Assembly: GCF_963576615.1 (NCBI RefSeq)
Contig: NC_088711.1
Coordinates: forward strand, 16,167,869 to 16,231,868
DNA length: 64,000 bases
Origin: Watersipora subatra
Taxonomy: Eukaryota > Bryozoa > Gymnolaemata > Cheilostomatida > Watersiporidae
Direction: 5' to 3'
This document shows positions 1,087 to 63,462 of the stretch, piece by piece. The notes beneath the pieces are model-generated. The model was not told the origin of the DNA. It worked only from the letters and a program-made list of their open reading frames with translations, and searched no databases. The position numbers and the translations under genes are program-made. Every line of letters begins with the position of its first letter. The first letter of the stretch is position 1.

Positions 1087-4000
1087 GTATCCGGGGATCA
1101 GACTGCTCTTATCCTCGTCTGGAACCCTGAATCCATGGATTTGCTTCATACATTTAAGGGACACAAAGGCCCAGTGACTGTGAGTATGTACAGAAAAGAA
1201 TACTTGAGTTAAGCACCTTGCTGTGAGTAATACTTCCACTAGGGAAAGTCGATATACATGTAGATTGTAATCCCAGCCACTATAAATTCCTCATTAGTCA
1301 CGTTAATCAGTGTCCTGCGAGGTAAGATTTTTTGGCAACAACTAAATTTCCTAGTAAATTAGTTTGCTACATCAAAACACGTATGTGTTATCTTTACATA
1401 AGAATGAAACTGGACACGCTTTGCACATAGTCACAATGGCAGTAGAAACATTTATAATGCATAACTTTGGTTGAGTGCAAATGCAAGTAACTTCATCAAT
1501 ATCAACATGCCACATGCTTCACAACTCAGGTAAAAAGTTTTCAGAGTAAAAGCAGCGCTAACTTCTGCATGATGATTGTAGAAGTTACAAACAATAGCAA
1601 ATAGTTACAGACATAAATTTCACATCGTCTAGATGAAACGGACAACTAGTGCGTGTCATAGGAACAAACTGTGTAGAATCTAAGTATAAATATATATATA
1701 AAATATCCAAAGAAAAAAATTATATATGTGGAACGCATCCAAATGAAATGGCAAGTGTTTTGAAGAATAAGATAACCTGGGAATAGCATAAAATCACAAA
1801 CTGTACCTGAAGGGGAAGGCAGGTGCTCTTCCCCACAATATTTGCCTGCATCACAATCAGGTCAATAAAATTAATAAAAAATTTACTTGTTTGTCACTTC
1901 CATCACCACGCACTATCTGTTGTTTATATTCTTGAATGTGGACCTAGTCAAGCTTTGCTGCTCATACTTTAACTAGCTTGTCTAGGAAAAGTCATCGCTT
2001 TGTTCAATTTGCTAACAGGGGGCTGTAGTCCAATTTGACACTTGATGCCTCTGTCTGAGATAATTCAGGGAGTTGTTTTCCCACCTGATTCTATGCCTGA
2101 GTAAACTCTGCTGCGTAGTTGTACTTTGTTTTTTTTTCTGCACTTCCGGTTTACATAGAGTTACGAAATTGTGGTGGTACCTTTGCACGTCATCAGTTTC
2201 TATTCTAATTTCGAGGTTTAAAGTTGGTTGTACTACTAGTTCTTATGATTTTACCAAAATACTGAGAGTCCTTCTAACATTAGTTCCTAGTGACGCACTG
2301 ATTGAAAGTATTGACAATGAAGTGTCTAATTTAGACAAAGATATAAAGCTTCTCAACAAGAATTATACATTAAAACTATTTGTTTTTCTATTCATAACAA
2401 ACATACATATTCTATCAGACTCGGTGTACTGCAGTCATTATGTTTCTTCAGTTATCTCTAAAACATCACTTCTTTGAAACAGTGTGAAAAAAACTATTTA
2501 CTATATTTGATTTCTGTTGTTTTTCATAGAGCTCTGCAATCTTTGGGCTTCAAAATGATATTCAGTTCAAAAGGAGTTGTGCACTCCTAAGTACTTTCAG
2601 AGTTGATGGAAGGTTGTTAATACTGTCTAGGATCAGGGGACTTGATTGTATATGCTAGACTGTTTCAATATGTTAAGCTATGTAAATCTCAGTGTGTGTG
2701 TGTGTCTGTGCAAAGCTAAAGGTATGGCCACACGTGTAGAACTATATAAATCGCTGCTAGAATCGGTCTCGCTAATAATTTGTTTAGCCAATTAAAAGCG
2801 TTTTGTCGGCGATTTCGGTGTGCATGCACAGATCTGACAATTCTGTCAATTTCGGCTGAATAATTTGGTGTTTTTCGTTCATTTCGTGATTTCGGTCAGA
2901 GCCAATGAAAAAATCAGCTCATGTAGCCGTACCGCCAGAGTGTTTAAGAAAGAGGTTGCATTATGCGAGAGTCAAACCTGGAGTTCCAGATTCAAAGGCA
3001 AGCACGCTATCATTACACCACCTAATCGCCTCAACTCATCAGGGGATAATTATCACATACTGCTTACTCATGACGATCTCTCACACTGCCTTGGACTGGC
3101 AAGCATACTAGCAAACATAGAATATAGGAATAGAATTCCACATTGTCACTCTGGTTGATCCTGGGCTGTTTGTATTTTATACAAGTACTGTCATGTAAGC
3201 TGATATCATCTCTTGACAGGGTCTAGCATTCAGGAGAGGTTGCAATGAGCTGTTCAGTGCCTCAGCAGACAAGTCTGTCAAAGTTTGGTCCCTTGATGAG
3301 ATGGCCTATGTGGAGACAGTGTTTGGACACCAGGATGCCGTCACCTCCATAGATGCTATGATGAGAGAACGGGCTGTCTCTGTTGGTGGCCGAGACAACA
3401 CCGTTCGTGTTTGGAAGATTGTTGAGGAGTCACAGTTTGTATATAACGGACCCGGGTGAGTGGCCAGATCTGCGTGTAAAAACTAAATTCTCTGTTGGTG
3501 TGAAAACTTTAACACGTATGACATATATCGCTAAGCACATTTCCATCTTATGCATATTTTATACAGTCTAAAAGTTTCTTGTTATTTTATTTCTTCTTTT
3601 TTTTAAATTCTAGAGTTCTTGTTAAGACAAGACATACTCTTAATTTGCATACTTACCAGTTCGATTCCAGCCTATCTATGATAGTAGCTCATAGACTTTA
3701 CCAGTTCATAGACTTTACCAGTTCATAGACTTTACCAGTTCATAGACTTTACCAGTTCATAGACTTTACCAGTTCATAGATTTTACCAGTTCATAGACTT
3801 TACCAGTTCATAGACTTTACCAGTTCATAGACTTTACCAGCTCATAGACTTTACCAGCTCATAGACTTTACCAGCTCATAGACTTTACCAGCTCATAGAC
3901 TTTACCAGCTCATAGACTTTACCGGCTCATAGACTTTACCAGCTCATAGACTTTACCAGCTCATAGACTTTACCAGCTCATAGACTTTACTAGCTCATAG

Positions 4001-6865
4001 ACTTTACCAGTTCATAGAATTTACCAGCTCATAGACTTTACCAGCTCATAGACTTTACCAGCTCATAGACTTTACCAGCTCATAGACTTTACTAGCTTGA
4101 TACTTTTTTATCCTTTGTTTCTAGCGATAAATGATAATTTTTGAAATACTTGTTTGTCTGGTGAAGAAAGTTAAATATTTCTATGGACTCTTTCCTTGAC
4201 TTGTTAAGATTTGAGGGTATTTTTTATTGTCAGGAACCATGCATCCTTAAAATGGCTAATTTAGATATGCCTATATAGCAAAAAGAAGAAAATTTAAAAA
4301 TGTTTTTTTCAAATCTGATAAAAATGCAAGTTCATACCACTTTGCTATATGGTTTACTAACAAGCCTATTTAAAGTCACCCAAGATTGTAATCAAACAGT
4401 TTTATGGCTTTTTCTTTTGTCTAAAATACAGGTAGTATTCATTTCAGGTAATTCGTCCTAAAAAACCCAACGATTAACGATTTCATCGTTAAATAGGTTA
4501 GGCCATTTTGTCATCATTCAGCAATACGGAATTTTTAACTTTTTTGATTTTTACGTTGACCGGGTACTTTGTTCAACCAGGACTACATGTACTACCATGA
4601 ACCATTTTAGGAACAGCAGTATTTTGAGCTGATTCTGCACTAGTGGAACATATAAATCCACTAGCAGTCCAATCTCTACATAAAAAGTTAATTACTTTTG
4701 AGATTTTCTTTGTGTATCAAAACTCTTATGTCAGAGCAACTATTATTAAAATTATAATACATTGTATTTTGTTTAATTCGTGTTAAAGCTCAAAAACCTT
4801 ACATTAGATACTTTAGGTAATTTAATATGGCATCAAAACAAAAGCACGATATAAAGTTATGTACTAACCAAATGCAGAAATGAAATTACATGTAAGACAC
4901 CAATAGAGCAATATTTAATAAAAAATGGTTTCTATTGTCAATTGCCTTTACGTTAGAGACAGGTTGACGGAGATATAACTTAAGACGATACAGGAGATAG
5001 TTGATATATATAGATAAGGTGGTAATAGTGATGCCTAACTGGTTTATAGTTCAACATTCACATAGAGTTTAGGCTGCGTGAACATAAAAATAAATCGTTC
5101 AAATAGGTTTTTGAAGTTTGCGACTCGCTAAATAGCTTCAAAATAATCAAACCTACAAGTATACATGAATGGGGTTGAGGTGGGAGAAAACTTCAAAATG
5201 AATTTAAAATTATAATTGTTATACAACCATAACTGTTAAAACGCCGTATCGTTGAAACATTTACTTGTTGATAACTCGGTGAGGGAACTTTAATTGACTA
5301 TAGTGTATAAATGTACAATACATAAATCATATGTCGTAATTATTTGGAATGCTTACTCATGATCACATTAATAATAAATCTTCCTTATATCCATCCACAC
5401 ATGTCTTTTAGGGGCTCTATGGATTGCGTTTGTCTAATAGACGAGGAAAAGTTTGTTACTGGCTCCGACACCAAGTGAGTGCATCTTCCTGATAAGCGAT
5501 GTCATGCTGCTTTCTATATGAGCTAACATAATGTGGAAACCTCAGTATAAAGTGTATGCGGTTGGCTCATACATGAAGCTATAGTGAATCTCTTCATCAA
5601 TTTGTATGTCATGAAATTGTGTAGGTCATACATCGGGAATAACTTTAAGCGTGGAGACAAGTTTTTGCTCAAGTTTTGCATCATGCTTTCAAAATATTTG
5701 TATACTGAGAAGATCCTCAGTTTGTTTGTATATATTTGTTGAGGTTTCAATGAGAAAATTGACCTCATTAATGGTAAAAAAGGTAAAACTAATCAGAACT
5801 TAAATGGCCATACGATATGAGTAGTGGATAGGGCATGCTATGTATGTACGCAACTAAGGGATGGAGCAGAATAGATTAAAATGCATATACATGAGCTAAA
5901 ACAAACTAACAATTTGATTTGGAAATTGGACTAGAATTCGAATTAATTGATTGTAATAACGAATACTAGTTGAAGCTTGGCAGTATCTCAATTATTGTTG
6001 GAACAAGTCTTTGTGGGCTGATAAAAACTAACAGAGATTCAAATACTCGACTGAGGCACTAGATTTGCAAAATTGCTGTTATCTGTACTTGAAGTGTGGT
6101 ATCACTATATGTTCTAAAATAATTTATTTATTTCAATCTGAATAACAAGATGCTTTCACTGATTTTACATACAATAATTTGTCTTTTTTTTTATTCAGTC
6201 AGATTTGTGTATGGAAAGTAATGAAGAAGCGGCCGGTGGCCACGGTGAACAACGCCCACGAAGGCGATGGGGAATGCTGGATAAATGCTTTGAGGGCTCT
6301 GAGAAACACTGACCTACTTGCGTCAGGTCAGCTTTATCACCTCTTTTCTCATCTTTTGTGTCATAGAGCATGTCACCAGCCTTGCCACTAGTTGCAGTAT
6401 ACAACTAGTAAAGTCATTTCCTTTCAAGCTAACATGTCAGTAGGCCTGCTTCTATTGATTTTTGCATCTTTCGTTGTAGCAGGCTCAAAAACTGGCCAGA
6501 TCAAATTGTGGAAAATCCCTGATTTTGGCCCCCCTAAAGCCATTCACGTCGTGCCAATGGTTTGTATCATGTACCTAGCAGTATATCTGTTAGTTTGTAC
6601 TGTTTATTATTCAACATTTTCATTGCCATACATATCTACCTAATATTTATGTCTACCTCTAAATCGGCTATAGCTATTTAACCATTCTTGTTTACAGCCA
6701 GGATTTGTAAATGATCTTCATTTTGCCACTGGTGGAAAGTTTCTGGCAGCTGCCGTTGGTCAGGAACATAAGCTAGGGAGGTGGTGGAGACTCAAGGAAG
6801 CTAAAAACTGTCTAGCAATCATCAATCTCCCTAAAGTAAAGACTAAATCAATCGTGAACGCGTGA
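1087..6865 (+). CDS. RRP9: RRP9 / U3-55K homologue, 3' part of gene (six exons, 5' end outside window)
   Basis: U3 snoRNP WD40 protein; in the family it binds the U3 snoRNA box B/C region in the nucleolus and acts in 18S pre-rRNA processing. Exons: 1087-1179, 3220-3455, 5412-5474, 6199-6326, 6483-6559, 6698-6865 (stop TGA 6863-6865); 254 codons plus stop, all phases compatible. Visible WD repeat pieces include SGDQTALILVWNPESMDLLH, GLAFRRGCNELFSASADKSV, FGHQDAVTSIDA, GGRDNTVRVWKIVEESQFVY and the family-specific tail VGQEHKLGRWWRLKEAKNC, which follow the human RRP9 order closely. The first exon here opens in the middle of a WD repeat, so the N-terminus and earlier repeats lie upstream of the window. 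The donor after 6559 (GTTTGT) is weak. Family assignment is secure; exon borders are inferred from splice consensus and phase. Confidence 0.93.
2721..2933. mobile_element. MITE-like element, short-TIR copy
   Basis: About 213 bp, ends GGTATGGCCACACG and, reversed, GGTACGGCTACATG. The interior (GCTAATAATTTGTTTAG to GATTTCGGTCAGA) is shared with the fold-back element at 13474-14145. It lies in RRP9 intron DNA. No clear target duplication, so the superfamily is undecided. Confidence 0.75.
3685..4097. repeat. 17-bp minisatellite in RRP9 intron
   Basis: About 24 copies of CATAGACTTTACCAGYT. The GTT variant dominates the first part and GCT the second, so the array is split into two sub-families. 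Confidence 0.95.
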
Positions 6866-23262: not shown

Positions 23263-26200
23263 CTACATAATGAAGACCTTCTCTGCGTCACTCAACATGA
23301 ATACACGCTTTGTACGAGGGCAAGTGATGCGGCCATCATTTTCCTTAGCCATTTCCTCCAAAGCCTACAAGTATTGTCACACCTAATAATGCTGTGAAGT
23401 TTTTGTGACGAGTCATATCTTACCTGCAAGTATGACTCACTACACTCAAACACATCAAGTTTTCAAATTGAGAGCATTTCACACTTAGTTAAGCTCCCAA
23501 ACACGATGAGACAAGGAGCTTCAGAATATCGACAGCTAATACGCAAGTGTAGAATTGCTTTACTGGTCAACTACAGTAGTCAACTGCAGTGGTCAACTGC
23601 AGTGGTCAACTACAGTGGTCAACTACAGTAGTCAACTGCAGTTGTCAACTACTGCAGTTGACCACTGTAGTTGACTACTGCAGTTGACCACTGTAGTTGA
23701 CCACTGCAGTTGACTACTGTAGTTGACCACTGTAGTTGACTACTGCAGTTGACCACTGTAGTTGACCACTGTAGTTGACTACTGCAGTTGACTATTGTAG
23801 TTGACCATTGTAGTTGACCACTGTAGTTGACCACTGTAGTTGACTACTGCAGTTGACTACTGTGGTCAACTGTAGCAGTCAATTGTAGTGGGTAACTGCA
23901 GTGGTCATCTGGTCAACTTTAGCGGCCAATTGTAGTGGTCACTGGTCAATTGCAGTGGGTAACTGCAGTGGCCATCTGGTCAACTTTAGCGGTCAATTCT
24001 AGTCAATTGCAATCTGATCAATTGCAGTCAACCTGTGACAATCTGATGTATAGGTCAACTGTAGCAGTCATTGCAATGGTCAACTATGTATTTGCAACCA
24101 ATAAACTACATGTAGTTTAAATACATGTACCTCAAAAGCATCCTATCATTTTATTACAACTTCATAAACAGTTCATAATATTACAAACATTTGTGCGAGC
24201 TGCAATCTATACTCACTTTTGTCCTACCCTCTAAATACATGCTACCTAGATGTATTAGATATTTGTTATTGATGCATTTAAAACTAACGCCTTAGCTAAC
24301 GGGATATACATTTCTATACACTGCAACATTTTCATATTAAATTCTAGTAGCTTCAAGAGCAAGCAATTACCTTAGTTCCGTAAACATGCCCATTGGGTAG
24401 AGCCATGGGTGGGTTATGCTCATTTAGTACTTCTCCCGACATTGAACATACAAGCTTAGAGTGGGAGCAGTGAGACCGAGGAAACTCCTTTGCTAGTTCA
24501 TTGAAGTTACGTGAGCAGACAGGGCAGTTGGTGTTCTTAGTGCCTTCCTTATAACACTGTCTGTTTTACTAGTGAAGGACTAAAGCGCAGTCACTGAGAT
24601 CAGTTGCCACACTGGCAACTACCCATTTGCCAACAATTTGTTGCAATATGTGTTGCTGTGTTGATAATATTCAACAACAGGCGGATAGAAAAAAGACATC
24701 ATAACATCTTCATCATGAAACACTATGACAGACAAACATCTAACAAAGGTATAAGTATAGCAAGAGACAAAAACGTAGCAAGAAGCATAAATTTTCACCA
24801 TACACATTAAAATCAAAACGCAGTATTGCAATTAATAAACCACATCAGGGTTGTTGCGATGACAACATGCAGCCCAATACCCTATTCAACACCTGATTTG
24901 AGGTTACAATACAAACAATTATCGAAATGAGGTTATACAGAAAACACATGAAAATTAAAGAAACCCAAACTCTAGTGTCTGGAGAATATATTACTGAGAT
25001 ACATGGGTTGCATATCCACATTGCAGAAGGATGTGAGATGTGATTAATATATATTTTAATTGGTGCCAATAATTTTCATTTTTTATTAATTTTTTGCCTA
25101 CTGACTTGATAAAAACTAAATCTATCGACTGTACAAAACTCTTAAGTTAAAGCACAACGGTGACAAGTACACTGGTAGCATCAAGTCTGACACACAAAAG
25201 GATACGGAGTCTTCAAAGCAGATAATCCACATTGCAAGCTCACAAGAAATACAGAGTTGCCGCTTATTTGATGCAAGCCAAAATTCTCCTTTCGAAACTG
25301 CTCGATGAGACTCACCCATCTGTCTTCAGAAAAAAGCTCCTGCAAAAGCAGACTAGCAAGATATACTAACAATCAAGCAAAGCGTTAGGTTACTGTCAAC
25401 ACTTTTAATGATTTTAGCTTATGAATGATTATGTAAAATTGTAAAAAGTTATCTCCTCAGTCATATAAGGATGAATAAAACTACTATTCTAAAGTAAAAT
25501 GATACCTTTAACGTAAGATGAACCTGAAGAACTTTACTATGTGAGAGAAGTTAGATAAACACATACAACTACAATGTACTAGTCTGATATACACTCATAC
25601 ACGCAGTGTATAAATCAGATATACATCCACACTAGTAAGAAATACAGTTAGTGTACTAAGAAATCAGTTGGTACTACTGCTGCGGTACAGCTGTACGCTA
25701 AATAGCTATTGATCAAAACTGAAGAACAGAGTGGGCTGTACTCACAGCATAAGGATACACCGTGGTGTCGACAGTAAAAGCTAAGAGTCCCATTAACCGT
25801 TGAATTCTATGGAGAAATGCAGGTTCTACAGAACCAAAGTACTTTCTAGCATGCCTTACAGCTTCCATTCGGTTCTGCTCTTTAATAAGTTCTACAAACT
25901 CCTGTTCACGAAGGCTCAACTCTAGTGTGCTGCAAACAGAAAACCCAAAGAACTTAAGTAATCACAGAAATTTTGACGAATGACTTGCTTGCTATGAGTT
26001 TATAGAAGGTACTACAGACTATTGACTACAGAGAGAATATAATTTCAAAAAGATTTCCGAAATATTGCAAATCCAATGGCTGCAAGATTACTCCATCAGT
26101 GACACAAATAATATGATGATCATTATCACAACTCTACTAGTCACGAGCGTGTGGGAGAAATACATGACTATGGTTGTCCGGAGTGTCAAACATTTGAAGT

Positions 26201-29200
26201 TTAGAGTTTGTCTTTCGACAAGACATCAAAGGCTGGAGACGGAAACGAAGGCAAAATGCTATAATCAGCATCGGCTTTGCAATGACCTCTTTGTGAAGCA
26301 AACTGATTTTGAAAAACAAGTAGAATAACTTGTCTATAAAATCTATACATACAAATTTACATTCAAATCTCAACTTAGAATCAATCACAGCGCCATATAA
26401 TTTTTTTGAATTATGACATAAAATTTGAGGTTCTTTAAACATTGCGGTTTGGTATATCAATACATATGTATGCAGTTCTCCTTCACGTAGTTTGGTTCTA
26501 CATGTACCTTGCTCAAATGTTATTCAACAGCGCTTCAAAACCTCAAATTCATGGCTCCCAGAAAGACTAATACGAGTAATAGTGCTAAGAAAAAAAACCT
26601 AGGCTTTTCGTAATAGTAAAACATCCAGTAATAACAAAGAAATAAGCTAATATCTGTAGGTCAATTCTCAAAAACTCTTTAAAAGCGTCTGGTAGCTACA
26701 AAGAAAAAGTAAACCAAAGTAATGCAACAAAGAATTAGGCAGAAAACCAGTCAACTTGGAGAGACTGGCCGTGATAAATAAACATAATATTCAAATATAT
26801 ACCAAATGTAACAACAAAAAATATATATAAATAAGTTTTCTTAGGTAAAAGTTTAAAATAGCCAACCTCAAACTCCCCATTGCTATCCTATCATGCACAA
26901 TCAGTGTCCAGTACTCCTGTGGCTACCCCTTATGTAGTTAATATTCAATGACGGGATGTGACAATAAAAACATCGCTTTAATGATTATTATTTCATTCAA
27001 CTAATTTTTCATAATTTTAAATAACACATTCTTTTTAATATTATATGTAATTACCTAAAAGATTGACCATTGGGTTGAAAACCAGATTTAATGAAATACT
27101 ATATGCTTTTATAAATGCTTTTCCTCCGACATACAACTGTCTTGACATACGAAGCAAATAGTGGAACAGATCAACTAGGTATATTGAGGTTTGGCGACAT
27201 ATTATAACCTATAGATATTAATTCATATATTTTATATACTTTTTTTGATCATTTCACTTTTGAAGTATTTGTATTTCGAACTGTTTTATGATATTTTAAA
27301 ATGTCCTATACTGCATTTAAAATCACATTATTTTCATTAAATGAACAGCAGATTATACAATATAGAGCGTGTAAAGATTATCGTGTGCTAACCTGCGTGA
27401 CTTGCGTAGTTTCGTCTTGTTCTCGTGACACCAGGTCAGACATGGACCAGTCTGATGGCTGAGCAGAGCCTTTTCGATTGTCTTGGAGTGCATAAATATG
27501 TCAACATTAGTTAGTTCCTAAAACAATAATAGTGAAGCAGTCACCTTATCATAAAATAATACAAGATTATGTTTGCTACCAGATTTAGCCGATGACAATA
27601 GCAAGAGGATGCCAAGTGCCCTCTTATAAAGGCAGAATAACCTTGAGGTGTCATACAAAAATTCTAAAAGCAAACATGCATTATCCGAGTGAGTTGCTAA
27701 CTTGAGAGATGTGAATATGGTGAGAGAAACAGTCAACTCACCTTAATATCTGAGTGAGTTGCTAACTTAGGAGCTGTGAATATGGTGAGAGAAACAGTCA
27801 ACTTACCTTAATATCTAAATGAATTGCTAATTTGAGAGCTGCGGATATGGTGAGAGAAACAGTCAACTTACCTTCATATCTGAATGAGTTGCTAATTTGA
27901 GAGCTGCGGATATGGTGAGAGAAACAATTAACTTACCTTCATATCTGAATGAGTTGCTAATTTGAGAGCTGCAGATATGGTGAGAGAAACAATTAACTTA
28001 CCTTAATATCTGAGTGAGTTGTTAACTTGGGAGATGTGAATATGGTGAGAGAAACAGTCAACTTACCTTAATATCTGAGTGAGTTTCTAACTTGGGAGCT
28101 GTGAATATGGTTAGAGAAACAGTCAACTTACCTTCATATCTGAATGAGTTGCTAATTTGGGAGCTGCGGATATGGTGAGAGAAACAGTCAACTTACCTTA
28201 ATATCTGAATGAGTTGCTAATTTGAGAGCTGCGGATATGGTGAGAGAAACAGTCAACTTACCTTCATATCTGAATGAGTTGCTAATTTGAGAGCTGCGGC
28301 TATGGTGAGAGAAACAGTCAACTTACCTTAATATCTGAGTGAGTTGTTAACTTGAGAGATGTGAATATGGTGAGAGAAACAGTCAATTACCTTAATATCT
28401 GAATGAGTTTCTAACTTGGGAGCTGTGAATATGGTTAGAGAAACAGTCAACTTACCTTCATATCTGAATGAGTTGCTAATTTGGGAGCTGCGGATATGGT
28501 GAGAGAAACAGTCAACTTACCTTAATATCTGAATGAGTTGCTAATTTGAGAGCTGCGGATATGGTGAGAGAAACAGTCAACTTACCTTCATATCTGAATG
28601 AGTTGCTAATTTGAGAGCTGCGGCTATGGTGAGAGAAACAGTCAACTTACCTTAATATCTGAGTGAGTTGCTAACTTGAGAGCTGTGAATATGGTGAGAG
28701 AAACAGTCAATTACCTTAATATCTGAATGAGTTGCTAACTTAGGAGCTGTGAATATGGTGAGAGAAACAGTCAACTTACCTTAATATCTGAATGAGTTGC
28801 TAATTTGAGAGCTGTGGATATGGTGAGAGAAACAGTCAACTTACCTTAAAATCTGAATGAGTTGCTAATTTGGGAGCTGTGAATATGGTGAGAGAAACAG
28901 TCAACTTACCTTCATATTCGAGTGAGTTGCTAACTTGAGAGATGCGAATATGGTGAGAGAAACAGTCAACTTACCTTCATATCTGAATGAGTTGCTAACT
29001 TGGGAGCTGTGAATATGGTGAGAGAAACAGTCAACTTACCTTCATATCTGAATGAGTTGCTAACTTGGGAGCTGTGAATATGGTGAGAGAAACAGTCAAC
29101 TTACCTTCATATCTGAATGAGTTGCTAATTTGAGAGCTGCGGATATGGTGAGAGAAACAGTCAACTTACCTTAATATCTGAATGAGTTGCTAATTTGAGA

Positions 29201-32200
29201 GCTGTGGATATGGTGAGAGAAACAGTCAACTTACCTTAATATCTGAATGAGTTGCTAACTTGAGAGCAGTGTCATAATATCCAAGTCTGAGACAATATTC
29301 TACAAGCATTCGGTCAAGTCGTTTTTTTCTCCAAAGAGCCTGCTCGGATTCGCTTAAATTCTCATAGTTCTGCAAATGTGAAAGCCGCCTTCTGCACACC
29401 TTTGCAGCCTCTGTCTCATCCTCCATTGCTTCAGCAGCCTACATTAAACCTGATACTTAAACATTTGTATGTCAAATGATCTTAAAGGTCAGGTTACAAC
29501 CTAATTGATGTACGGTGTACTTATACGTATAGCTAAACCTCGAAGTACAGATTCAATCAGCTCTGATATTCGCTATGTATAATAAAACCGTCACATGTTT
29601 AAACTTAAAGGTCGGGTTACAATGTTCTTATTAGAATTGATATATCGCGATTAGTTTCATTCGCTTCACAGCTCCTAATCTTAAAAGAAAAAACAGTTCG
29701 AGTAATTATATAGATTTAATTATAGCATTAATACATAATTTATATAAATTATAAAAAATTAGATGTAACAAACCCGATGGGACAAACAAAACTATATGTA
29801 AGAAACTAAAAAATAAAGCAATAATCAATAAAAAGAGGTTTTTTGTCATTTCAATTTAATAAGTGACACTTGTTAAATTGTGACATTTGAAAAAGCTGTC
29901 ACATCTTTTATATATGAAACATAGGCATAAAATGTGCGAACATAGGTGTAACCTTGGCAATACAGGAGACCGTGGAGGTCGCAATAGAGAAAGGACGCTT
30001 TAAACTTTAAATGACGGAATTTATCCACGTATAAACTTTTGCTTTCCATTTGGTGCTTCAATAAAACTTCTTAATTATTACAGCTTCTCCACTTATTCTC
30101 GTTTTCCGCTTTCACTTTCTTTACCACACTAATTACGATATAGATGGTATGTCACAATCCATATGATTTTGCAAACAATTGATGCAATGGTATTTATTCA
30201 TGCCTTTTTTATTATTTGTTGGTAAGATTCCAAGAAAAGCTTTGCTCTTTTCTTTTCACTACCTTTTTTTCTCTTTTCAACAAATTATCTATTTTCAGAT
30301 CCATGAAGTTAAAACTATAAGGAGAAAGCATGAAGCACTGTCTAATACTAATCGAGAACAGAAACCGAATCATATGAAACATGAAGAGCTGTGTACATAT
30401 CTAGTAATTTACAAAACAGAAATGTTTCAAAAATCTTTCAATATTTTATTTTAGAAATTACTTTGTTTGTTGTGATGAGTTTGTATGTTGAGATGATTTT
30501 GTATGTTGAGAAGAGTTTGTATGCTGAGATGAGTTTGTATGTTGAGGTGAGTTTGTATGTTGAGATGAGTTTGTATGCTGAGATGAGTTTGTATGTTGAG
30601 GTGAGTTTGTATGTTGAGGTGAGTTTGTATGCTGAGATGAGTTTGTATGTTGAGATGAGTTTGTATGTTGAGGTGAGTTTGTATGTTGAGGTGAGTTTGT
30701 ATGTTGAGATGAGTTTGTATGCTGAGATGAGTTTGTATGTTGAGATGAGTTTGTATGTTGAGATGAGTTTGTATGCTAAGATGAGTGTTTGTATGCTGAG
30801 ATGAGTTTGTATGTTGAGATGAGTATGTATGTTGAGATGAGTATGTTTGTTGAGATGAGTGTTTGCTCAATATTTATACTCATATACATGTAGAGGTACT
30901 AGTAAGACAAGGTTTGAGCCCCGTTTGACTGCGGAGTACACCTAGCATTGATAGCATGCAATTTTTAAGGAAAGGCATTTGGTGCACAGCAGCACATCAC
31001 AAAGTAGATGACAACCAACAAATTTTTATGTTTGCAATAGAACTAAGCAATTGAACAAAAGTACATAAAGAACTTGGTCTGATGCCTGAAGGCTAACAGG
31101 CCGACATACAGAAAGTATACAATGTACCTGACGAGACAGTCTTATATTAGTATACACAAATACACAAAACTATTTATTATAATAACTGATATTCACTGTA
31201 TTACATGCTAACGAGCATGGTACATGACAAGTACACGCATGACTAATGGCAATGAAAAATCTTTCACCTAAGAAAATAAGTGATGTTACATTATAAGATC
31301 TGTTGATATTGATACTATAATATCAGCAGGTCACCTGGTCACTGCGATATTAAAGATAAAGAAACCTCACCAAATCCTAACCTCCACTTAGGATACTATT
31401 CCAACCAGCATTTATAATAAGAGCATCAAATTTTACTGCTACAGCTTCCTCATACCAAAAAATATCACTTGCATATCTGTTCAACTCTAAGTATCACCTA
31501 TGAATACACGCTCAGCCTATGAAAATGTTTGCTGCATTGCAGATAAAGAACAGTAAAAAGTTATAATATGCATTTACCTTGCGTTTGAGCACTTTGAGCT
31601 TGGCTACCATAGAGCAAAGTAGTTCTGAGACACTCTCTGCAGATGAATCATCCACCAGAGATGCCCCAATCTTTGTGGCAGCAGCGTTAACATGAGAGAT
31701 CTCCCTATCAATGTTTTTTTGTGCATTTCTAAATTTTCGGTTCAGAGACTCGTATGGAACCTGCATAAAAACTTACAACTCTCACTCCGAGAACAATTTT
31801 TGTTATAACGCTTCCTAGATTAGAAAATCAAAATGATTCTGCTGTTTGCAAGAGATAATATTGTTAATTGTTCTGGAAAATATTTTACAGACTTTAATCG
31901 TTACAACTCGGTTACTTTACTTATAAGAAAATGAAACAGTGGGGCGAAAATGGCTCCAACTGATCACTCAACATCTAAGCAGATTTTATCATATTTTATC
32001 AACAGAGAAAATTGCGAAACGAAGTAAAAAACCGAAAATTAAAGTATTAGCGAATCACACCAACATCTGTTGCTTTTTAAAACAATGGCTTTATTTACCA
32101 CTGAGTCGTCGATTTACTAGTACAGGATGATTTATGAACATGATCAGCTATAATATACAAGAACCATAACAAAGTGTGCAAAAACTCTGGTATTATGAAG

Positions 32201-32601
32201 CAAACTGTAATGTAACGAAGGAGTTCGAAAGATTCTTTGGTTTCTTGGGAATCTTTGGTTTAACCTTGATTAAGCTATCTTACTACTACTAGGGCTCATC
32301 GCAGTGTCTTCATCAGTGCCACGGTTTACTCGGCCCTTACAAGCGCATGTAACATATAAACAATGCTGGCAGTCTGCTTTCTCAGACTATATTCTCAAAA
32401 CGAATCAGAAGATGCAAGTATACAAATTGATGCTTTGATAAAATGAAAGAACAGGAAATTTTAGTGTGAGTCAAAAAGTGAAATAGAATCAATCATAACT
32501 AACACGAGATTTAAAATTTTCAAATAACTTAAATAAGACCATTTCAATTAATAAAAACATACCTTGAGTGTTGGGTGTTCGAGGATACGGACATCAGCCA
32601 T
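23263..32601 (-). CDS. MAEA: MAEA / Gid9 homologue, CTLH (GID) E3 ubiquitin ligase subunit, complete (8 exons)
   Basis: Member of the RING-type core of the CTLH/GID ubiquitin ligase, with RMND5 as usual partner. Exons in transcript order: 32563-32601, 31578-31760, 29235-29438, 27393-27517, 25746-25929, 25206-25339, 24371-24560, 23263-23364; 386 aa (human about 396). Conserved blocks: [20 protein letters not shown] with NIDREISHV near the N-terminus, LisH segment [20 protein letters not shown] (115-134), CTLH region with [23 protein letters not shown]-type [20 protein letters not shown], then the degenerate Gid RING: CPVC (302-305), the [10 protein letters not shown] segment, ALPNGHVYG, and [10 protein letters not shown], ending EKVFIM. 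Start ATG gives [13 protein letters not shown]. The ATG-containing exon is only 39 nt. Intron 3 holds an exon-derived tandem array, described separately. Confidence 0.96.
23566..24090. repeat. 13-bp minisatellite with internal strand switch
   Basis: GTCAACTRCAGTG units run forward from about 23566, switch to reverse complement near 23645, and switch back near 23865, so the array folds on itself. Located between the last two MAEA exons. Confidence 0.9.
27690..29275 (-). repeat. 65-bp exon-derived tandem array in MAEA intron 3 (24 copies)
   Basis: Each unit, read on the gene strand, holds 32 nt matching the last 32 nt of MAEA exon 3 (CTCTCAARTTAGC...AAG), then a GTAAGT donor and 33 nt of intron. 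Most units also carry a pyrimidine tract and CACAG or CGCAG just before CTCTCAA. The array abuts the true exon, which supplies its most upstream unit. Confidence 0.95.
30470..30865. repeat. 18-bp minisatellite in MAEA intron 2
   Basis: About 22 copies of ATGAGTTTGTATGTTGAG with AT/GC variants. The unit is a multiple of three, so artificial long frames open on both strands. No gene is implied. Confidence 0.95.

Positions 32602-48231: not shown

Positions 48232-63462
<15,231 letters not shown>

Follow-up and report, generated by a model that had tools for sequence, protein, structure and literature searches.

A tandem array across the exon 3 donor of the MAEA gene in Watersipora subatra as a probable mirage minisatellite

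The MAEA gene and its array

We analysed a stretch of 64,000 nucleotides from the genome of the bryozoan Watersipora subatra (hereafter the window; contig C4:16167869-16231868), in which a tandem array with a unit of 65 bp crosses the end of exon 3 of the MAEA gene and continues into intron 3. MAEA is a subunit of the GID/CTLH ubiquitin ligase. As we argue below, the array is probably a "mirage" minisatellite, a by-product of a repeat-prone genome that is tolerated rather than selected. For genome-wide searches we used 784 Mb in 239 contigs, of which 15 were sized; C1 to C11 measure 46-79 Mb, and the remaining four at most 1.1 Mb. The features of the window are collected in Table 1.

Residues 4-386 of the predicted protein, that is, nearly its full length, align with human MAEA (8pjn_i, E 2.1e-134). 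Together with the intact model of 386 amino acids, this bears out the name that a first-pass annotation of the sequence had given to the gene. The same annotation had placed the array in a LisH-coding part, which we could not confirm: at E ≤ 0.001 Pfam reports no LisH domain and finds CTLH and a RING/U-box finger (zf-RING_UBOX) instead. The join of exons 3 and 4 is gap-free in the alignment to human MAEA, so that none of the array can be retained when the functional product is made. We also looked in the genome for a second copy or a retrocopy of MAEA that might rescue the gene and found none, all seven matches of the protein being its own exons. The gene must therefore work with the array inside it.

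Table 1. Features in the window, with positions counted from its first nucleotide
Feature	Position	Strand	Description
MAEA coding span	23263-32601	minus	8 exons, 386 amino acids, 7/7 introns GT-AG
MAEA exon 1	32601-32563	minus	phase-0 end
MAEA exon 2	31760-31578	minus	phase-0 end
MAEA exon 3	29438-29235	minus	204 nt, phase-0 end (HSDIK/ELTN); final 32 nt form the exon portion of unit 0
MAEA intron 3	27518-29234	minus	1717 nt; its whole removal is the sole enumerated path that keeps the frame
MAEA exon 4	27517-27393	minus	
MAEA exon 5	25929-25746	minus	
MAEA exon 6	25339-25206	minus	
MAEA exon 7	24560-24371	minus	
MAEA exon 8	23364-23263	minus	
Array unit 0	29266-29202	minus	32 nt of the real exon 3 end, then the real donor GTAAGT (from 29234) and 33 nt
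Array units 1-23	29201-27709	minus	23 complete copies within the intron, each with a GT donor; AG at most starts
Terminal stub (unit 24)	27708-27682	minus	27 nt, exon-like, without donor
CtBP acceptor-side array	62538-62777	plus	50 bp x 4.8, over the branch/pyrimidine region

Structure of the array

Tandem Repeats Finder (TRF) reports the array on the minus strand at 27682-29271, with a period of 65, 24.5 copies, 92% matches and a score of 2543. TRF reported two rows in a first-order Markov control (200 kb), and the array is therefore not a product of chance. Both TRF and a reading unit by unit, in which two of units 1-23 are 64 nt long instead of 65, confirm the earlier description of a 65-bp unit that is split 32/33 and repeats the exon end and the donor. 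All 24 full units carry GT, and 22 carry GTRAGT (units 8 and 13 have GTAATT). The statement that 24 units have donors thus stands, but they are not 24 decoys; there are 23 decoys and one real donor. The nine bases of the latter, AAGGTAAGT, are unchanged in 20 of units 1-23. The pyrimidine tract and AG that had been noted where a 32-nt exon would begin are likewise found, with AG directly before 20 of the 24 unit starts (units 1-24) and CAT before the other four. By a crude count the pyrimidine fraction is 0.71-0.76 in the array acceptors, compared with 0.41-0.76 in the seven real acceptors of the gene; on this measure the two groups look equally good.

Among the 24 full units, 22 of the 65 columns are variable, and the variants are arranged in blocks of five units (325 bp). 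The mean mismatch at lag 5 is 2.74 versus 5.11 over all pairs, a value that none of 20000 shuffles of the unit order matched at any lag from 1 to 12; units 10, 11 and 12 are identical to units 15, 16 and 17. An ordering of this kind is what block amplification usually leaves behind. A genome search for further copies of the array, which skips very common words, gave a single match, namely the array itself.

Effect of the array sites on the reading frame

We enumerated what use of the array sites would do to the protein: 242 pseudo-exons (from any AG to any later GT), 23 extensions of exon 3, 20 extensions of exon 4 and 1140 combinations of three microexons. Translation stops after 145 residues in all of the single pseudo-exons, extended exons 4 and three-microexon combinations (242/242, 20/20 and 1140/1140), and after 144 residues in all 23 extended exons 3, versus 386 for full MAEA. 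Mixed longer paths start with one of these enumerated steps. When read in phase 0 from exon 3, each of the 24 downstream copies has the form CTC-xxx-xxx-TAG or CTC-xxx-xxx-TAA, with a stop at codon 4, and the intron part in the exon 3 frame reads GTA AGT TGA. Entry from exons 1 or 2, which both end in phase 0, would meet the identical stop. The extra splice sites, if used, would cut the MAEA protein short; since every enumerated path stops, only truncation is left, presumably with nonsense-mediated decay.

This bears directly on the idea that the array generates isoforms, i.e. that several 32-nt microexons are joined into in-frame protein variants. The splice-like borders on most units speak for it, and the first-pass annotation had proposed both that three inserts of 32 nt restore the frame and that protein isoforms may result. 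However, the frame stays open in 0/1140 three-unit combinations and in 0/242 single pseudo-exons, so that restoration by three inserts fails and isoforms are excluded for the enumerated paths, all of which stop at 144-145 residues. For phase-0 entry from exon 3 the enumeration refutes an isoform generator, and we give this explanation practically no chance.

Comparison with known systems

Mirage minisatellites have been described in the amphioxus genes Adh3, BflGb6 and BflGb9, for which reverse transcription PCR (RT-PCR) suggests that regular splicing is undisturbed (PMC3087553). They share with the MAEA array the position of the tandem repeats across a real exon-intron border, the presence of AG and GT in many, but not all, units, and the concerted evolution of the units (PMC3087553). 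In MAEA it is unit 0, with the final 32 nt of exon 3 and 33 nt of intron, that crosses the border; GT is found in 24/24 and AG in 20/24 units, and the lag-5 block pattern and the identical unit triplets point to concerted turnover. The amphioxus mirages hit both 5' and 3' borders (PMC3087553); here, MAEA is hit on the donor side and a CtBP gene, described below, on the acceptor side. On the other hand, the numbers differ: MAEA has 24 full units as compared to 6 and 3 in two BflGb6 haplotypes, and its unit of 65 bp stands against 10-72 bp in Adh3 and 150-160 bp in the amphioxus globins (PMC3087553). The MAEA array is a further case of an already described kind of repeat.

A second system is human IFI6 (6-16/G1P3), which, by a title of 1995, reportedly contains a minisatellite with multiple splice donor sites. 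Its unit is said to be shorter and to carry the donor only; unlike it, most MAEA units also have an acceptor-like start. As far as a title can tell (reference list of PMC2572611), the likeness consists in a minisatellite that repeats a donor site. The donors are there said to be provided to the transcript, and this is the nearest case in which such donors are said to serve one.

Introns may also arise from tandem arrays or from internal duplication (Rogers 1989, Zhuo 2007, Gao and Lynch 2009, as cited in PMC3087553). These introns and the MAEA array are both duplicated segments with AG/GT signals. Unlike in duplication-born introns, there is no new intron in MAEA, the array lying inside intron 3. 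One could still regard the array as an intermediate of intron gain, in which a mirage offers exon-intron borders for later recruitment, following the model in Figure 7 of PMC3087553 and the work of Rogers cited there. Most units are indeed ready cassettes of acceptor, exon and donor, but units entered from exon 3 carry an in-frame stop, so that further mutation would be needed first, and we consider this role very unlikely.

Variation and accessibility of the array splice sites

If the array sites were selected, the splice-critical columns should vary less than the others. Within the array, to which these tests are confined, 3 of the 12 splice-critical columns are variable versus 19 of the 53 others (Fisher p = 0.74), and for the donor columns alone the figures are 2/9 versus 20/56 (p = 0.71). 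The column test thus lends no support to selection on the array splice sites, while the raw counts of donor cells, to which we return in the discussion, lean toward it. Among the distinct codon variants in the exon copies, 9/12 are non-synonymous. We also considered whether the decoys are concealed by RNA structure and rejected this for the first four units, a stretch of 269 nt whose folding is worse than that of all 200 shuffles (z = +2.93).

A function that is consistent with some of these observations would be that of a rheostat of poison exons, where regulated use of the array sites yields truncated, decaying transcripts that set the dose of MAEA, tuned by copy number. The array offers 23 decoy donors and 20 AGs near real-site quality, all enumerated uses truncate the protein as expected of a poison exon, the RNA of the first four units is open, and, according to PMC4039745, a C. 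elegans minisatellite is over-represented near regions of alternative splicing. However, the splice columns show no excess conservation within the array, AG is lost in 4/24 and GTRAGT in 2/24 units, and the amphioxus mirages are reported as not disturbing splicing (PMC3087553). We therefore regard a rheostat as unlikely. More generally, nothing here supports a tuning of splicing by the array, since the splice columns vary like the others, 4/24 AGs are lost and the amphioxus arrays of this structure are described as splicing-neutral.

Minisatellites and other arrays at splice sites

How often should one expect such an array? In a sample of 20 stretches of 10 kb each, at fixed positions on contigs C1-C7 (200 kb), arrays with a period of at least 10 cover 26.5 kb (13%), versus 3.9 kb of the 64 kb of the window (6%). 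The founder units of the 32 sampled arrays with at least five copies sum up to 810 bp per 200 kb. If seeding is random and neutral, about 0.4% of random points, and thus of splice junctions, lie in a founder unit, or 1.7% if all 92 arrays are counted; arrays over junctions are therefore to be expected. None of the 43 sampled arrays (period at least 10, at least three copies, 200 kb) has GTRAGT in half of its copies. Weaker donor-like words are common in arrays: GTRAG or [AC]AGGTR is present in at least half of the copies in 20 strand hits among the 109 arrays of sample and window, 4 of them in window arrays.

Some of the sampled arrays are very long, for example 57 bp x 85 and 33 bp x 68. The window itself contains a minisatellite at 3686-4097 (17 bp x 24), and two further places within MAEA carry minisatellites away from splice sites, at 30462-30860 in intron 2 (18 bp x 22) and at 23564-24003 in intron 7 (13 bp x 21 and 67 bp x 2).

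The junctions that we placed in the window are those of MAEA and of one CtBP exon (E 4.7e-24), and two arrays touch them. One is the MAEA array; the other lies at the CtBP exon, where 3 bases separate the end of the array from the inferred acceptor AG (62781-62782) and three units carry a decoy CAG. A second donor-side case is found in a patatin-like gene (C1:3783501-3784500), where an array with a 27-bp unit, which repeats CTACARGTAAGT, begins at the inferred real donor (exon end C1:3783884) and has, by eye, about six copies, five of them with GTAAGT. The joined exons of this gene match Pfam Patatin (1.5e-11); taken singly, the upstream exon matches no Pfam family and the downstream one remains below the Pfam cut-off.

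MAEA (23263-32601) and the CtBP-like gene (57069-62952) lie together in one window, as they do at human 4p16.3, and their linkage is possibly conserved.

Potentially, the copy number or the order of the units could be mis-assembled. Tandem arrays are hard to assemble, and one amphioxus mirage was aberrantly assembled (PMC3087553). Against this, the units differ at 22/65 columns with blocks in order, the array lies on a 67-Mb contig and the genome has other arrays of such kind, so that an artefact seems highly improbable.

Arrays of donor motifs in the genome

Three occurrences of AGGTAAGT spaced by 48-78 bp have 1665 + 1470 = 3135 matches in the genome, versus 139 + 147 = 286 for the reversed motif, where the counts are of matches and not of arrays. 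In 264 kb with the MAEA array masked, single AGGTAAGT is not enriched over its reverse (7 versus 6 occurrences), and the mean of 560 motif permutations is 10.1 with a standard deviation of 10.5, 369 of the 560 being at least as common as AGGTAAGT. As the spread between motifs is so large, a few long arrays may account for the 11-fold ratio.

The matches listed belong to four arrays on C1, and for the most part to a single long array, which extends past the last listed row (C1:3483101-3483600 is array throughout). Only one of the four, that of the patatin-like gene, lies at a recognisable coding donor. Beside two others (one at C1:1754101-1755100), no exon was evident by eye in the 1 kb that was read, and the fourth was seen at one end (C1:3480201-3480700). 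In the arrays at C1:1754101-1755100 and C1:3480201-3480700/3483101-3483600 the units run GTAAGT...ACAG, so that AG and GT abut at each border, resembling repeated exons of zero length.

It is conceivable, though on balance doubtful, that the genome contains many (perhaps hundreds of) 5' splice-site arrays, of which a sizeable share would have started from real donors. Mirages would then be a genome-wide class, and tandem duplication would be biased to, or best tolerated at, exon ends.

Discussion

A tolerated mirage minisatellite would account for the MAEA array as follows. Local tandem duplication in a minisatellite-rich genome may have seeded it, and unequal exchange or slippage may then have expanded and homogenised the units. 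Transcripts would normally join the first, real donor (29234) to the exon 4 acceptor (27518) and discard the array. Exon definition would pick exon 3, which has 204 nt and an upstream acceptor of its own, while pseudo-exons of 32 nt and pseudo-introns of 33 nt would probably be too short for pairing. Rare use of array sites would lead to a truncated reading frame. An intact gene without a second copy would fit undisturbed splicing of MAEA.

Several points weigh against this reading. By raw cells the donor varies less (3/216) than the rest of the exon part (48/696), with 32/576 cells varied elsewhere within the intron part and 4/72 in the last three bases; we discount these counts because the cells of an amplified array are not independent. 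In the first four units the array sites are unburied, and the majority of the array donors match the real one exactly. When U1 levels are high, intron-proximal donors can be the ones chosen. Normal splicing of MAEA is something that we infer. Finally, the genome-wide excess of donor motifs at array spacing may exceed what chance seeding would give.

As it stands, the array poses a natural test for the spliceosome, which has to select one of 24 donors although the majority share the same nine bases, and each enumerated wrong choice ruins the MAEA protein. If 5' splice-site arrays are indeed numerous, intron 3 of MAEA would stand beside many other natural counterparts, in this case a 24-fold one, of the classic experiments with duplicated splice sites. 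If donor motifs are also in excess when arrays are counted, the genome would contain many such tests, and one could examine in it whether exon borders are preferred by tandem duplication and whether this contributes to the gain of introns.

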